From: Alitta virens
Lineage: Eukaryota > Annelida > Polychaeta > Phyllodocida > Nereididae
Assembly (NCBI GenBank): GCA_932294295.1
Contig: OW028574.1
Coordinates: 32,878,165-32,942,164, forward strand
Reading direction: 5' to 3'
DNA length: 64,000 bases
Part shown: positions 1,653 through 62,211 of the stretch, piece by piece
How positions within the stretch are numbered: position 1 is the stretch's first letter
How the letters are laid out: every line of letters starts with the position of its first letter
The notes under the pieces: model-generated
Told to the model about the DNA's origin: nothing
Seen by the model: the letters and a program-made list of their open reading frames with translations, nothing else
Databases searched by the model: none
Position numbers and translations under genes: made by a program

Positions 1653-1670
1653 CATTTAAAACATGTTGAG

Positions 1671-4500
1671 TAGGGTGGAGTGAAAAAATAAAAGGGGCCA
1701 AATTCAGAAAACAGCAGGGCTAATTAGTTGTCAAATATATAGAACTTGGGTTTGGTGGTGATTTTGAGTGGTTGCACTAATTTCTGTCAGTGCTACCCTA
1801 GGCATTTTGAAATGCACTTACGCCACAATCCATGAACCCGAAAAAATGCTATTTTTGGCCATAGAAATGGTTCTAGATGGTATAGAATCCTAATTTAAAA
1901 CGCTAGACCAATGGTTTTGAGGATGCTGAATGTGATGAATCACATGGAAGATTAAAACAAACTTATGCAAGTAATACTTTTTTGACAACAATGGATTTTT
2001 CTCATTTTCGAGGGGCATAAACACATATTTTTCTGTAGATATATTCAGATCTGTACAATCCGCAATACATGTAATACAAAACTCAAATATGTCATAGCAC
2101 CACTGTAACAACAGAAAATCTCACTGTATATCATTGGATTGAATATTCAGATTTATTCTTTATACTTGAAACTGCATCTTTGTATCAAAATTTTTCATCA
2201 GCTTGCGAGATTTAATGCGTTGTCTGATTACACCATCTCTCCTCTCAGATCTGCACACTGAAGAAGCAGCTTCTGTTACCAACTTGATATGTCTCTCTAC
2301 TGCCTGATTATGGCAAGGGTGCTTCAGTACTAGGGGAACCTCAGACAATGTTTTAACTTCAGTGACGGTAAGATATCTGGTAACTGGAGGTTCTGAATCA
2401 GCCGTTTCAACATGTCATTTCATAAACCTTTGCTTTGAGGTTCAGTGAGGGAACTTGAAATTTTCTAATATTAGAATGACCCTCCTCAAAGGTTGTCACC
2501 ATCTCTTCATCATTTCTGACATGGACTGCTCTTAAGGACAGGATCTTATCAATGGCTCTTTGTCGGACTGACTGGTTGCTATCTGCTAGCATTCCCATAA
2601 GGATGTTTTCAGGATGCAAAAAAAAAGCATTTCTCTGCAAAGTTTCAATAGCAATTGCACGAACTTGCTTGTTTTGAAACTGAATTATGGATTGAATAGG
2701 TGAGAAAAAATCCTTTGGCCCATTAGTGATTTTAGGATTCATTTTGAGTACAAACCACCCTGGGAAATATATCTTGACACTAAATTCTGCTATGGTCTTT
2801 AACACTGCTAGGTTTTTGCTGGGAAACATAAAATCTCAGGATTATGCATGCCAGAGTTAACCATCTCGAGTTAACAATAGGACCTACTTCAAGAAGTTGG
2901 AGATCTTCCTCAACAGAACCTGTTATCACAGCCCAGCAAATCCTATACCCATAATACTGGTCACTACTTAGATCATTCAATACAGCATCTGGAAGATGAG
3001 GAAAGTCAGTGGGCTGAGCTTGTGAAATATTTCAATTAACTGAAAGTATTTTAACATAAACACCTTTCCAATACACTACCCCAGATCTGACACTCAATTT
3101 AAGAGTTCATTAGCATTTTATGCTGCAACAAGGTTCTTCAAATCATTTCTATTCTGTGTTGTTCACTCAAACCCAAATGCAGTTTCATGACTTTCTTCGA
3201 GGTAAGAATCAGCAGCAATATCAAAAGCTTCATCTTGTTCCTCAATTTCACTACTGCTAGTGGCTATGGAATCTACTTTTCGCTTTTTCTCTCTATGAAT
3301 ATCAAAACCATGAAACAAATACCACATTAGTCAGTTTGTCACAAATGAACTGCAAATATACTTTTGTGATATCATTGCAGCTAAATTATTTACCTTAATT
3401 TGGCATCTTCTTCATTTAAAATTCTTCTTCTATATCTTATATCTGATTCAGACAGTCTCTCTTCAATGTTTGTACATCTTCCAACCCTTAAAGTTTTTTG
3501 ATCATCCAAAAACATGTAATCTTGTTCAGTCATTCTTAGTTTAAACATTTTTTCTTGAGCACTTCTCTGGGAATCATCAGAGCAGGCAATATCAAAATGT
3601 TTGTCACATCTTTCTATGAATTGGTTAAAGTCAACTTGAAATTATTATTTACTTTTAGACTTTGGATAACGATCAAACCTGCAGACAAAAGGTCAATAAT
3701 AACTGCTATTATCAACCATTAAAAATAAGCAATTGATGACATTACTGAAACTAATATTTGACATTATTTCAAATCTATTGAAATCAATGTGAAATTGTTC
3801 ACCTGGTGAATTCAGCAGCAAGATGTGTTACTTTAACTATTACTCTCCTTTCTAACACTGGATAAACATTACTCCAAAGCCACAGATCTATCAATTCTCA
3901 CAAGCAATCTTTCAATCACTTGTTTTGTCGTTGGGAGTCGCCCTGGTGGAAAACTCTCTATCGCTGTAAAAGTATGCCCACCCTGCAACACCTTAGTTGT
4001 TTTACTGCGTGTTAAAGCCATGCTTTTGATCCATAGGATGCTTAAACAAGCTCTCCAGCAGGTCTGCAGTCAGTGTGTGACTCCAGAACTCACCAATGTC
4101 ACCAAATATGTTCTCAAGAACAATATGATGAAAAGTATTGCTGAACCTTCTGATTTTCACACAAATGTGGCAAAATGTGGTCTGAAACAATATTACTACT
4201 TCTAGACATTGAATTTATAATTTCAAAGTACTCTAATAATGTTAAGCATCCTCAAAAACATTGGTCTAGCCTTTTAAATGATGAATCTATACCATCTAGA
4301 ACCATTTCCATGGCCAAATAGCATTTTTTTCGGTTTCATAGATAGTGTCGTAAGTGCATTTCAAAATGCCTAGGGTAGCACTGACAGAAATTAGTGCAAC
4401 CACTCAAAATCACCACCAAACCCAAATTCTATACATTTGACAACTAATTAGCCCTGCTGTTTTCTGAATTTGGCCCCTTTTATTTTTTCACTCCACCCTA
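1671..4500 (-). mobile_element. DNA transposon with about 255-bp terminal inverted repeats
   Basis: Sequence 1671-1926 is the imperfect reverse complement of 4245-4500. The outer ends read TAGGGTGGAGTGAAAAAATA and its complement. Flanking sequences 1661-1670 and 4501-4510 match at 8 of 10 positions and share tgttgag, which fits a 7-10 bp target duplication. The insertion interrupts the left arm of another inverted-repeat element, and that arm resumes at 4511. The interior carries a decayed gene on the minus strand. Long inverted repeats with an internal gene and flanking duplication support a cut-and-paste transposon; the superfamily is not recognised. Confidence 0.8.
2160..4021 (-). pseudogene. 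Transposon-borne conserved protein of unknown function, decayed
   Basis: Read on the minus strand, I see an ATG at 4021, exon 1 to 3803 (donor gtgaac), exon 2 at 3678-3394 (acceptor ttgtctgcag, donor gtaaat), exon 3 at 3292-3166 or thereabouts (ending near 3163), and exon 4 from 2988 (acceptor cctcatcttccag) to a stop at 2160. Recognisable blocks include WSNVYPVLERR, DFNQFIERCDKHFDI, MTEQDYMFLDDQ, a basic EKKRKV (NLS-like), DQYYGYRICWAV, FFLHPENILMGMLAD, SEPPVTRYL and PCHNQAVERHIKLVTEAASS. From memory, similar proteins occur as multicopy hypothetical genes in cnidarians and arthropods. Defects: frameshifts near 3860, 2826 and 2410, and two adjacent in-frame stops near 3646. The location between long inverted repeats suggests it is an element-encoded protein, possibly the transposase; no DDE motif could be identified. 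Confidence 0.65.
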
Positions 4501-5014
4501 AATTGTTGAGACACCTTCTGTGCAAAAACACTAATGCTGTCATAAATTGCACTAATTCTGGCAATGCATAACAATAAAACTTCAGATAACTTTGCTCATA
4601 AAAGGCCTTCATTGAAGGCATTAAATGACACAATAACTAATATTTTGACACAATAACCAATATTTTGACACAATTACCAATATTTTGGCAATGTCGTATC
4701 AACTGGCATCTTTTAGATTTTATCATATCTTTTGTATACAAGATATGGTAGGAAAATTGAGAAACGTTCAGGCTTGACCTGATTGGTGAAAATAGGACTT
4801 GATCAACTGCAGGTCAGTGACCTAGGACACTCCTGGACCTTTACCAGATAATCAGATAAAATTGTCATTTAATGCCTACAATGAAGGCCTTATGAGCAAA
4901 GTAGGACAATACAGTAATTATCTGAAGTTTTATTGTTTATGCATGGCCAGAATTTGTGCAATTTATGACAGCATTAGTGTTTTGGCACAGAAGGTGTCTC
5001 ATGTCTTAAATGTA

Positions 5015-35751: not shown

Positions 35752-36900
35752 ATAAAGCTTTAGTGTTATGACGGGCTTTGAACAACAACAATTTAAATAA
35801 CTAAACGGTATTTTATATGCTGCATTGATTTTCGGGATAGATTTAAGCTGAAGCTTCCCTGTGAACGTCACCAAGAAAGCGACCTCAGAATTAAATCCTA
35901 AGGGATTAAGCAAATACAATTTAGCTTTCGACTTGATTTATTTACTACATTAGAACTTAACAATTAGGGCCATATTGGCAACTTTACCCTTAATGGTGAG
36001 GTAAACATATATATTAAGATATATCTTAATGGAGAAGGTGAAATACACCAGCGAGTGTACAATTGGTTCCTAGATTTGGTAGTCTTACTATTCAAGTGGT
36101 CGTAATTAGATTTTAATAATTAGATAATTATAAGTAAGATAGTTTTAATAATTAGGTGGTCTAAATAGTCTGGTTATCTCAATGTGTAGGTTGTAAAGCC
36201 TCAATTGATGAGCCGATATTTTCATCTGTAATTTAGGTGAAATTACGCAATTATGCATTTGGTAAAATTACCCTTTTGAAATAAGTGAATGTTTCTCTCC
36301 AGTATTTTTCAAGGTGTCTGATCACAGAATTCCACGATTCATTAAAACAAATTAACCAAAAACATTGAAAATGACTGAATATATGTACATGCCAAATCAT
36401 AACGCGAATTTTGGGACTCATTTTGAAGACAATACAAAACATTTTAAAAAGAGTCATGTCTGACATTGAAGTTGGTCATAAAGGGAGATGCTGATGTATT
36501 GGCTACACCTGGTATTTATGTGAATTCTGGGAAGGAGCAAATCGGTAGAATTCAGCAATATTTGTGAAATTTATTATATTTTTGACATATCTATGGTTTT
36601 ATAAGACAAACAACCGCATTAAGCTGTAGGTTGCTTTCAAAGGAAGAAACATGTGCAACAGCAGTCATTAAACACCACAATAGACAGCTCATGAATAATT
36701 AGAATCTCATGTTTTTATGCTACTTAAATTTAGAAAATGAAATATCCATGGCAATATTTCACACGTAAAAACTGACTAAGTAGTCGAAGAAAATGTTATT
36801 ACATGCAATGTAGGGCCAACCCTAGCAGGATATGAGTTTTAAAATTAGAGCTTCGTCTTTTAAAGATCACCTCACTCATAAGTCCACCTATCATAAAAAA
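35752..36900 (+). other. Intron, no gene seen
   Basis: AT-rich; its end (36810-36900) is the left flank copy of the 66-bp array. Confidence 0.5.
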
Positions 36901-37296
36901 TTGTATATCTCTTGCAACGTAGGGCCAACCTTGGGCCAACCCTAGCAGGATATGAGTTCATAAAAATTGTATATCTCTTGCAACGTAGGGCCAACCTTGG
37001 GCCAACCCTAGCAGGATATGAGTTCATAAAAATTGTATATCTCTTGCAACGTAGGGCCAACCTTGGGCCAACCCTAGCAGGATATGAGTTCATAAAAATT
37101 GTATATCTCTTGCAACGTAGGGCCAACCTTGGGCCAACCCTAGCAGGATATGAGTTCATAAAAATTGTATATCTCTTGCAACGTAGGGCCAACCTTGGGC
37201 CAACCCTAGCAGGATATGAGTTCATAAAAATTGTATATCTCTTGCAACGTAGGGCCAACCTTGGGCCAACCCTAGCAGGATATGAGTTTTAAAATT
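36901..37296. repeat. 66-bp tandem repeat, six units, open on both strands
   Basis: The unit starting TTGTATATCTCTTGCAACG recurs every 66 bp (36901, 36967 and so on) with almost no variation. Because 66 is divisible by three and no stop falls in one frame per strand, a 126-codon plus frame and a 128-codon minus frame result, each a 22-residue repeat. No start context, splice site or flanking coding sequence supports translation. Flanks 36810-36900 and 37278-37350 are also near-copies (AAAATTAGAGCTTC, CTCACTCATAAGTCCACC), so the array probably grew inside a duplicated segment. Confidence 0.85.
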
Positions 37297-58700: not shown

Positions 58701-61558
58701 ATCCACACATAAATCAGGCCGCCATGTTGTAGTAAGTTTCATGCATTAGTCAAATCGTCCCATAACCAATTGGGCGCAATGAAAGTCTTACCCTGGGGGT
58801 GTGTGTTGTAACTGATGCAAATATTGATGCATGGTATCGTGTTGAAAGTGTTATATTAATGAGTATTTGTGGCTTTTACCTGTTTTCCTTTTGTCTTTAA
58901 TCTTTAACTTTTGTCTTTGTAATGAATTAGGCAGCAATAGGAACTCATTATTAATAACACGATTACCACTATTATTGGGGTAATTTGAGCAAAACACACA
59001 GAACTGAATGTAAGGACTAATGCCAAATGCAATGGAAATTAGGACAAACAAAGCAGCTACTAATGTAAACTAATGCCCATCATGCACCTGTCTTTGTTAT
59101 TGTGCAACAAACACTATGACCTTGGTCTTATATAAGCAATGTACAGGTACAGTGCGTGCTGTACAGGATCAATTGAATAGGAACCATTCTCTGCCATTTT
59201 AAGAGATCAAGCCTGATAGTAATTTAGTTGTTTGTTTATATGTATGTATAATTTATTTAAGTTAAACAAACTTCTGTACGACAAAAAAAAAAATAAAAAA
59301 TAATAATAATAATAAATGCCATAGTTATGCTTTTCAATTATTCGAGTTAAAAGAAACAAGAAAATTTGCGATGCAGCTAATATGATAATGACAGTAAGTA
59401 ATTTATTGGCAGCTTTGTTATTTAGTACTCATGTGTCCTTGAAACATGTTAGTGCAAAGGAGATATGATTGCGAGTGTTATAGTATATAGTACATTGTTG
59501 TGACATTGTCAGGAAAATGCGGTTATATCCGAGTTCTTTTTCTGGCAATACTAGTGCTGAAAGTGTAAGCCTTTTATTAATATTTAAAAGAAAGTAAAAA
59601 GACGCCAGGTGTTGTGAGTGCAATGCAGTGAATACGTTTTGTTGAAGTTAAGTCTTTACTTTCGTATGCCACATCATCTGATATACTTTGAATCTTATTA
59701 TTTCTACATCAGAGAGGTTTAATAAGAATGAAGTTTCAACACAGGGCACCTATTGTCAGCTGCCTGTAACAAGGGGTGGTTCAACTTGCCCCTTTCTTAA
59801 TTCTCTAATATTCAATAATGTTTTAAATATTCACGATTTCCTTTGATAAATGATTGTCAATTAATATTTGCTATTTGATGGTCTGGCATAGAATTAAAAA
59901 AAATCTGTAATGTCTCGATTAAATATTTAATGATTCAGAAATATTTAGTTAATTAATATTCTGGATATGAAAAGATCGTTCTGAAGTTTGATAAATTTCT
60001 TCTTAAGACGTATTCGATTATCATATCTACATCTAACACTTAAGACTCAATCATACAGGGTGTGGCCAAAAAACTTGCACTTTTAAGTCCTAAATTATCC
60101 AAATGAATATGTTGTTTTCTCAATAATGATAGATAATGTGGATCTAAATATAGGACATGCACACTTATCACAGCTACGGATTATTTTCACCTTGGCCATT
60201 GCAATACAAGCATTAGATTATGTCACTGGGCGTACAGATGTGTTACAGACACCTGTCTTGACCTTTGCACCCACAAATAGGGCAAATAGATTCACGTTGA
60301 ATGAGTAGGGAGAGCATTGACATTGAGAAGTGGAGTGCATTTTGGGTTCAGGTCAATTACCAGATTCGTATGAGATTTTTCTGTTTCAATCTTATGACCT
60401 TTGCTAGATCAAAACTGGAACTGACTTTCTCATCGTCTAATGCTACAATATATAGCATATATATCTATATATCTTCAGCTAAGATCCGCCAGTGCCCAGC
60501 ACAAACCAGCAAGTCTGAGAATTATAATTAATTCTAAACATCGTTCAGACTGCGATGTCGTTTTCAAAGTGACGCTAAGACCCATTCCCACAATTGCACA
60601 TCAAATACCTGGGCTTATAATCGAGAAAATACGACAATTAAAGTGTTATGTTTTTATTTTTTTATTGAAGTCATTTTGTGAAGTGGAAATCGGTTGGGAC
60701 CAAACTGGTGTGTATTGATAATTTGATATATATTACAAAGGTAAAGACGAGCAAGAACTCTATATAAGTTGGAGTCAATGAGTAGACCACGTGTCCTGCA
60801 TTAAAGGGTATTCTCATGTTACCCAAGGGCCGAGGAGAGAGTGCTCACGGAATGAGCTGGGAATGCATTTGAGATGGGCTCATTACTTCTAACACGAAAG
60901 GGTCCTATATGGTCAACACCGTGGGTTGTCGTGGTTTCTTGCTGGATGCTACATGACTCCTGTATAGGGTAACTTTAAAAGGTAGCAGTATCATTTGCCA
61001 GTATGAGTAATCAACAATTGCACCAACTATTCGTTTATTGTTCCTTTATAATCAGTATTTTTCTGTAAAATCTTCGCGTAATAACAGGCTATTTGTGTCT
61101 TTATTGATTGACAAACCTCTTATATTTAATGTCCACCTGAAGCCCATCGTTTGAAGGCTTTCAATTTGTTGTGTGAATTATGACAAGACAATCATGGCGC
61201 TGGCAAGTCTGCAGGCTTTGCTCCATCAAACAGATGAAACTTGGAAGACTCTTTGACAAATAATGCAAGGTAATTGCACATTTGCCTGCCATGCCATCCA
61301 CCAGGCCTTCATTGGCTACCTAATGTGCCCGTTGCCGCTAGGGGGCATTGCCATGCACATTTTTTTGCACGTGATTGGTTTTTGGTGGATGGGAACGGCA
61401 TCTGGGTAACACATGAAACAATTCCAACACATGTGCTCATGTTGTTTGTGTCAAATTTTGCTTTGTTCTAGAGCCAGTGGTGTGAAAAATCGACATTTTC
61501 TCTGAGAGTTTCGTTTTAAGGGTAGTTTGGGGCAGACTGTAATGAAGCAAATGTTCCT
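55788..61558. other. No gene supported
   Basis: 55790-56560 is GC-richer with several overlapping frames of 60-115 codons on both strands; none is recognised. 60058-60085 (ACAGGGTGTGGCCAAAAAAC) resembles one end of a mariner element, but no partner end was found. The rest is AT-rich. Confidence 0.4.
56041..56098. repeat. Short 17-bp tandem repeat
   Basis: TGATGGTCAATGTCC occurs about three times in a row. Confidence 0.75.
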
Positions 61559-61905
61559 GGTGTCCATGCCTGGTGTCCAGTCCGTGGCATGCCTGGTGTC
61601 CATGCCTGGTGTCCAGTCCATGGCATGCCTGGTGTCCATGCCTGGTGTCCAGTCAATGGCATGCCTGGTGTCCATGCCTGGTGTCCATGCCTGGTGTCCA
61701 TGCCTGGTGTCCAGTCCATGGCATGCCTGGTGTCCAGTCCATGGCATGCCTGGTGTCCATGCCTGGTGTCCATGCCTGGTGTCCAGTCAATGGCATGCCT
61801 GGTGTCCATGCCTGGTGTCCAGTCCATGGTATGCCTGGTGTCCATGGTATGCCTGGTGTCCATGGCATGCCTGGTGTCCATGGCATGCCTGGTGTCCATG
61901 GCATG
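61559..61905. repeat. Mosaic minisatellite (TGCCTGGTGTCCA)
   Basis: The array is built from two blocks, TGCCTGGTGTCCA and TGGTGTCCAGTCCATGGCA, in varying order, ending in five CATGGCATGCC-type units. Several frames on both strands stay open for 88-147 codons only because the repeat lacks stops. No start context or homology suggests a gene. Confidence 0.9.
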
Positions 61906-62211
61906 TCGGATGAATACAAATGACTGGTGATCTATATGAGATACATTACATCTGGTCATTCAGTTTTTGATGGTGTCTTGTGTGTTCCTTGATGCATGTA
62001 TCCATATTCCCCTGGGCAACACGCCATGCGATATGTCAGGATCTTTTTAAAGCAGCCCTATGCTTTGTGAGGATCAGATCCGGATGTGGGCATTACATGT
62101 TACATGTTGTGTGTCTGTTTGACTCGATCACAGAGATAAGTGGCCCTTGGCCATTCATTTATAAGCCGTATCAAAAGATCAAAGTGAACTGTGACTTGTC
62201 CTTTGCTTGAC

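Follow-up and report, generated by a model that had tools for sequence, protein, structure and literature searches.

A decayed gene between long inverted repeats

The DNA analysed here (the window) is a 64-kb stretch of Alitta virens, positions 32878165-32942164 of contig C2 in a genome of 671 Mb in 23 contigs. Positions 1671-4500 hold a minus-strand gene (~4021 to 2160) enclosed by two long inverted repeats, with ~220-230 bp between the gene and each repeat. An earlier reading made from the letters alone (the sequence-only reading) had described inverted repeats of ~255 bp around a protein-like, multi-exon, decayed gene, and this description was borne out. The repeat arms 1671-1846/4325-4500 are 97% alike and the arms 1854-1930/4242-4318 are 91% alike; aligned as a single pair, the two repeats have 3 gaps (Table 1). 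The rest of the 64-kb window contains no further copy of the repeat.

When a profile of 59 relatives (A3) was compared with the window, six minus-strand frame pieces, and no others, matched at E≤1, and they were collinear with the profile. The blocks reported in the sequence-only reading sit in the last three of these pieces. A GT-AG intron (3802-3679) gives back the family reading EFT-RFDRYPK, and a second intron is likely at ~3393-3293; frame changes were located near 2820 and 2415 (all by eye). The conserved D, D, C, H, W and E residues discussed below fall at profile positions 315, 389, 418, 421, 515 and 695. The window copy lacks profile ~188-464, and with it both D residues and the CxxH motif, and retains the E. 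We consider it very probable that 1671-4500 derives from a cut-and-paste DNA transposon with a DDE (Asp-Asp-Glu) transposase, as a dead copy that has undergone an internal deletion.

Table 1. Features of the probable transposon copy and its insertion site in the window
Feature	Positions	Strand	Remarks
Candidate target duplication, left copy (ACATGTTGAG)	1661..1670	+	8/10 vs right copy
Terminal inverted repeat, 3′ side of gene	1671..1930	+	Starts TAGGGTGGAGTG; 245/261 columns match other repeat (reverse complement); 26 genome matches
Last coding part, presumed catalytic E of PCHNQAVERH (codon 2297-2295)	2163..2414	-	Profile 660-739, E 8e-33; stop codon 2162-2160
Coding part, helical insertion region (HPENILMGMLAD)	2410..2835	-	Profile 533-650, E 1e-39; helical in model of relative
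Coding part with RW motif (NSRWLT)	2783..3031	-	Profile 465-534, E 1e-28
S- and E-rich open piece, without profile match	3163..3292	-	Deletion falls between this piece and 3031
Likely intron 2	3293..3393	-	Inferred; GT/AG by eye
Coding part	3394..3678	-	Profile 110-187, E 7e-13
Likely intron 1	3679..3802	-	GT at 3802, AG ending 3679; inferred: splice signals present, family reading restored
First coding part (MALTRSK...)	3803..4021	-	Profile 3-37 (E 6e-4) and 63-93 (E 6.6e-3), frame change between; start codon at 4021 by eye
Terminal inverted repeat, 5′ side of gene	4242..4500	-	Finishes CACTCCACCCTA
Candidate target duplication, right copy (AATTGTTGAG)	4501..4510	+	8/10 vs left copy

Relatives, presumed catalytic residues and predicted fold

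The joined window reading retrieved 7 proteins, a five-protein alignment 143, and a twelve-protein alignment 483 at E≤0.01. Host and protein names rest on the best 120 of the 143 and the best 120 of the 483 matches, most rows being nameless. Among these listed matches the insect hosts were Amyelois, Brassicogethes, Frankliniella, Scirpophaga, Diatraea, Daktulosphaira, Diabrotica and Cacopsylla, and the non-insect hosts were Trichoplax and the leech Helobdella; the relatives in cnidarians that the sequence-only reading mentioned were not confirmed among them. The protein names given there were 'uncharacterized', 'unnamed' or 'hypothetical', the exception being 'DNA-binding protein YbaB' (P0062). 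One cluster (P0005) represents 939 sequences. Relatives with flanking DNA were found neither in viral contigs nor in prokaryote genome contigs.

Alignments A3 and A5 comprise 59 of 123 and 95 of 223 collected proteins, respectively, those omitted being mostly fragments. At least 650 residues are present in 157 of the 223, and in 155 of these 157 D304, D378 and E713 (P0002 numbering) are all found; taken singly, D304 is present in 157, D378 in 156 and E713 in 156, and the full triad is missing in P0079 and P0095. C407 and H410 are each conserved in 155 of the long relatives, and R508 and W509 in all 157. In 57 rows of A3 the two D residues are 68-78 residues apart, and 235-343 residues separate D from E. 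Within the worm genome, copy L009, which shares 97% repeat identity with the window copy, reads DGRKD, GSDGT, CLLHTNELPLRH, HSRWLT and CHNQAVER, and other copies (family A and L066-L069) have D, D and E wherever the triad positions are readable. The earlier statement that no DDE motif is visible thus holds for the window copy, in which the internal deletion removed both D residues, and fails for the family.

Two predicted models of relatives had DDE transposases and integrases as their best PDB matches, and in the relatives the conserved D, D and E are placed in a predicted RNase H-like fold. These structure searches bear little on the first ~175 residues, and the fold is claimed for the remainder. 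Hermes aligned better than ISCth4 with both models, in a comparison set without a MuDR structure. The aligned ranges were judged compatible with what we take to be the catalytic residue numbers of Hermes. By the predicted fold, the triad would form the active site and the chemistry would be that of a DDE transposase.

At E≤10, 44 Pfam families touch the 59 A3 members; among the 25 of 44 listed, the best E was 0.0014 (HEAT_2, 3 of 59 members) and HEAT was the commonest match (8 of 59). In the open-licence PubMed Central (PMC) literature searched, neither the name cc8L18.2 nor four family peptide strings occurred, and no description of the family was matched in titles or abstract beginnings. A sequence search for a solved structure returned a single match, a ribosomal protein (E 5.6), which was discarded. 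On sequence and model evidence together, the family very probably consists of DDE transposases that no Pfam model covers, and it resembles hAT in predicted fold and in target choice.

One 495-residue relative (P0123) carries a PHD-finger-like stretch (E 4e-4, below the Pfam cut-off) and may be a fusion or a gene-prediction chimera.

Copies of the element elsewhere in the genome

The gene has at least 73 genome matches (64 of 276 candidates scored). It lies between window-type repeats in L009 (8.0 kb) and L010 (7.8 kb), which are near-duplicates, and in L011 (3.17 kb); L020 holds repeat pieces plus the gene. L009 and L010 are long because a ~4.3-kb retrotransposon sits inside them, without which ~3.5 kb is left. 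The gene was also found, at different loci, between terminal repeats of two other types, neither with a long perfect repeat. Family A occupies ten places on several contigs with 96.5-99.8% identity (up to 99.8% between different chromosomes), and its alignments end at a common point wherever the 3′ end is present (L031 and L033 are cut short); its 3.46-kb copies begin TAGGGTGTGTCAATTTT and have a 17-bp perfect terminal repeat. L068 and L069 (3165 bp, 99.7% identical) have termini as in family A, and the termini of L066 and L067 are TAGGGTGGGCCC. The proposal that the family is transposon-encoded, with this locus giving its terminal repeats, is upheld by other loci at which the same repeats flank the gene and by the target duplications described below; the homologues are not single-copy genes devoid of flanking repeats.

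With its 340 bp, L017 cannot accommodate the gene, which shows that there are short dependent copies. For L012, L015, L016, L018, L021, L022 and L023 the DNA examined yielded no inverted partner of the repeat; the same test overlooked the short pair known to be present in L017 and is thus not a sensitive one.

Three further observations concern these copies. The retrotransposon in L010 (997-5315, contig C10) has reverse transcriptase and tyrosine-recombinase-like open reading frames (ORFs) and split direct repeats, and is Ngaro/DIRS-like by reading. The 13-bp spacer between two facing repeats is inverted between L009 (8662-8674) and L010 (8425-8437), as if inverted repeats had recombined. Five family gene copies at C6 36.15-36.51 Mb (L046 and L048-L051), which share 98-99.9% identity across 3 kb or more, form an array from local duplication, in a region that also holds the hATC genes L087 and L090.

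Target duplications

Twenty insertions were examined, of which 17 were computable; the one-ended L031, L033, L039 and L065 stand outside the 20. Exact duplications were found at 10 of the 20. Six are of 8 bp: L066 GTGGACAG, L067 ATGTACAC, L069 ATAAGGAG, L068 ATGTAGAT (9 bp when the repeat's first T is included), L032 CTAGACAT (first base of the repeat altered) and C12:6.33 Mb CTGGAGCA (5′ repeat shortened). Four are of 9 bp: L025 CCATGGCAA, L026 CTGGGGCAC, L034 CTACTGCGC and L017 CTGGGCAAT. Near duplications flank the window copy (8/10), L027 (10/11), L010 (7/8), L029 (7/10) and L011 (7/10). L009 has none, L030 is uninformative because of its position within an AT repeat, and none was seen by eye at L042 (112-bp inverted repeat, 91%). 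L014 and C12:34.2 Mb have each lost one end, and no duplication could be computed.

The target pattern published for Hermes, nTnnnnAn (PMC10368747, PMC2803484), fits 5 of the 6 exact 8-mers (background 0.097; binomial 4.7e-5), a comparison made after the duplications were known. Its lengthened form fits 2 of the 4 exact 9-mers, which makes 7 of 10 for both lengths together.

The window element ends TAGGG...CCCTA, and its flanks agree at 8 of 10 positions; 0.19% of random flank pairs give matches of such quality at lengths 8-11. Right at the element ends an 8-bp duplication matches at 3/8 only, and length 10 alone matches there. The candidate target duplication of 7-10 bp that had been put forward for this locus is supported. 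The right flank adjoins an inverted-repeat element with arms 4507-4571/4937-5001, and on the left the stub TACATTTAAAACATG (1651-1665) resembles the continuation of that neighbour's other arm, TACATTTAAGACATGAGACACC in reverse complement (an unscored pairing, by reading). An older repeat thus appears to have been interrupted by the transposon, as would be expected of a discrete insertion.

The neighbour (1651-1670 plus 4501-5014) resembles a shorter miniature inverted-repeat transposable element, with 65-bp arms 95% alike, apparently split in its left arm; our guess is that it may be TA-flanked as in mariner-type elements. At the window (4501-4510), L029 and L011 the flanks agree over 7 bp, followed by ATT before TAGGG on the 5′ side vs T plus other bases on the 3′ side, and CAATT also adjoins the repeat end in L014 (5′ end) and L039 (3′ end). 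An extra triplet recurs at one element end.

Placement among transposon superfamilies

hAT elements are described as 2.5-5 kb long, with 10-25 bp terminal repeats, 8-bp duplications and a highly conserved hATC domain (PMC3942097). The family resembles hAT and Hermes in its predicted fold (catalytic core with helical insertion), the C/DxxH motif, element length and the nTnnnnAn pattern. Two further likenesses are presumed: we take the TAGGG end to fit a hAT end rule YARNG, and the ER in QAVERH to correspond to a hAT ER motif. Like the P element and THAP9, the family combines DDE with C/DxxH and has ~8-bp duplications (PMC3706591). It shares DDE with C/DxxH and animal hosts with Dada, and differs in having 8-9 bp duplications and terminal repeats, Dada being described as lacking terminal inverted repeats and as duplicating 6-7 bp within small RNA genes (PMC3706591).

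Several observations weigh against the reading of the locus as a copy of a hAT-like cut-and-paste transposon. Neither hATC (PF05699) nor the BED zinc finger appears in the full Pfam results for 7 pieces of the window and 13 relatives. Half of the insertions (10 of 20) have no exact or usable duplication, four duplications are of 9 bp, where hAT has 8, and the lengthened pattern fails to fit two of these four. The duplication of the window copy itself is imperfect (8/10), its length is neither 8 nor 9, and the window copy and L011 both carry deletions. Finally, the top Foldseek match of the second model was ISCth4 (2.7e-5), ahead of Hermes (1e-4).

This last match, ISCth4 presumably being an IS256-family transposase and thus a bacterial relative of MuDR, speaks for a Mutator/MuDR-type element, as do the four exact 9-bp duplications and the 261-bp repeats of the window type, which are unlike the 10-25 bp of hAT. 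C/DxxH is also common to MuDR (PMC10045372, PMC3706591). We nevertheless regard such an element as improbable: the same full Pfam results contain no Mutator transposase domain (such as PF10551), six duplications are of 8 bp with the Hermes target pattern, perfect repeats are not long in the two other repeat types (17 bp in type A), and Hermes is the better aligned in both models, the insertion domain of ISCth4 aligning over fewer residues (270 and 262 vs 338 and 341). Still less credible is an accessory protein, as the sequence-only reading had allowed, or a host gene caught between the repeats of an unrelated element. The window copy, without the D residues of the triad, would fit such a protein; nearly all long relatives, and L009 with the same repeats, carry the triad, placed by the models in an RNase H fold, which makes it unlikely. 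Moreover, three types of terminal repeat enclose the same gene at different loci, and the extra ORFs of L010 belong to the inserted retrotransposon.

It is possible, though we would not count on it, that the family is an ordinary fast-evolving hAT already in Repbase and missed through an insensitive Pfam hATC profile. The Hermes-like fold, the 8-bp nTnnnnAn duplications and the element length of ~3.2-3.5 kb would agree with this, as would the best of four hhalign runs (probability 16.8%, E 0.0015), which paired the second D and CxxH in register with one hAT protein. Against it, hATC has at least 129 matches elsewhere in the genome (150 of 240 candidates scored), and is therefore detectable there; among the matches listed no overlap with the 73 family gene places was noticed, and hATC is not among the 25 of 44 Pfam families listed for the A3 members. 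No significant sequence similarity to the hAT ORFs of the genome was found by hmmsearch (12 ORFs, best E 0.031) or hhalign, whose three other runs gave <1%. Since hATC and BED were not found and the direct sequence match is weak, we conclude that the family works like hAT, and make no claim that it is hAT. Tentatively, it may represent a separate, uncatalogued DDE superfamily of animals, sister to hAT. Such a superfamily would resemble hAT in its core and in the choice of target, and would differ in having N- and C-terminal regions of its own, neither hATC nor BED at a detectable level, and a stagger of 8 or 9 bp. The suggestion of an undescribed transposase type thus stands as far as Pfam and the literature searched are concerned, and is qualified by the hAT-like fold and target duplications.

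Proposed transposition and its implications

The element ends, the gene between them, the conserved triad, the exact duplications and the copies at many sites can be read in the DNA and protein sequences themselves. The intact element would be ~3.5 kb with one gene, coding for a DDE transposase of ~740-760 residues. In this protein an N-terminal region is probably followed by an RNase H core that carries D, D and CxxH, then by a helical insertion containing RW, and finally by a helix bearing E. Acting as Hermes does, the enzyme would bind the TAGGGTG sequence at each end of the element, excise the element and insert it into target DNA with a stagger of 8-9 bp, which would give rise to the duplication. 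Since the window copy has lost both D residues, any later movement would need the enzyme of another copy.

A large family, with insects, a placozoan and a leech among the matches listed and so far 'uncharacterized' or 'hypothetical' where named (P0062 excepted), can thus be assigned a probable transposase function, and annotators can drop it from host gene counts. The terminal and target sequences make its elements findable, and the recent copies (family A) make recent movement testable. The gain or loss of the usual hAT domains may also be illuminated by a hAT-like enzyme that does without them.

Elsewhere in the window there are tandem repeats (36872-37292 and 61451-61959) in which several frames of both strands are open.
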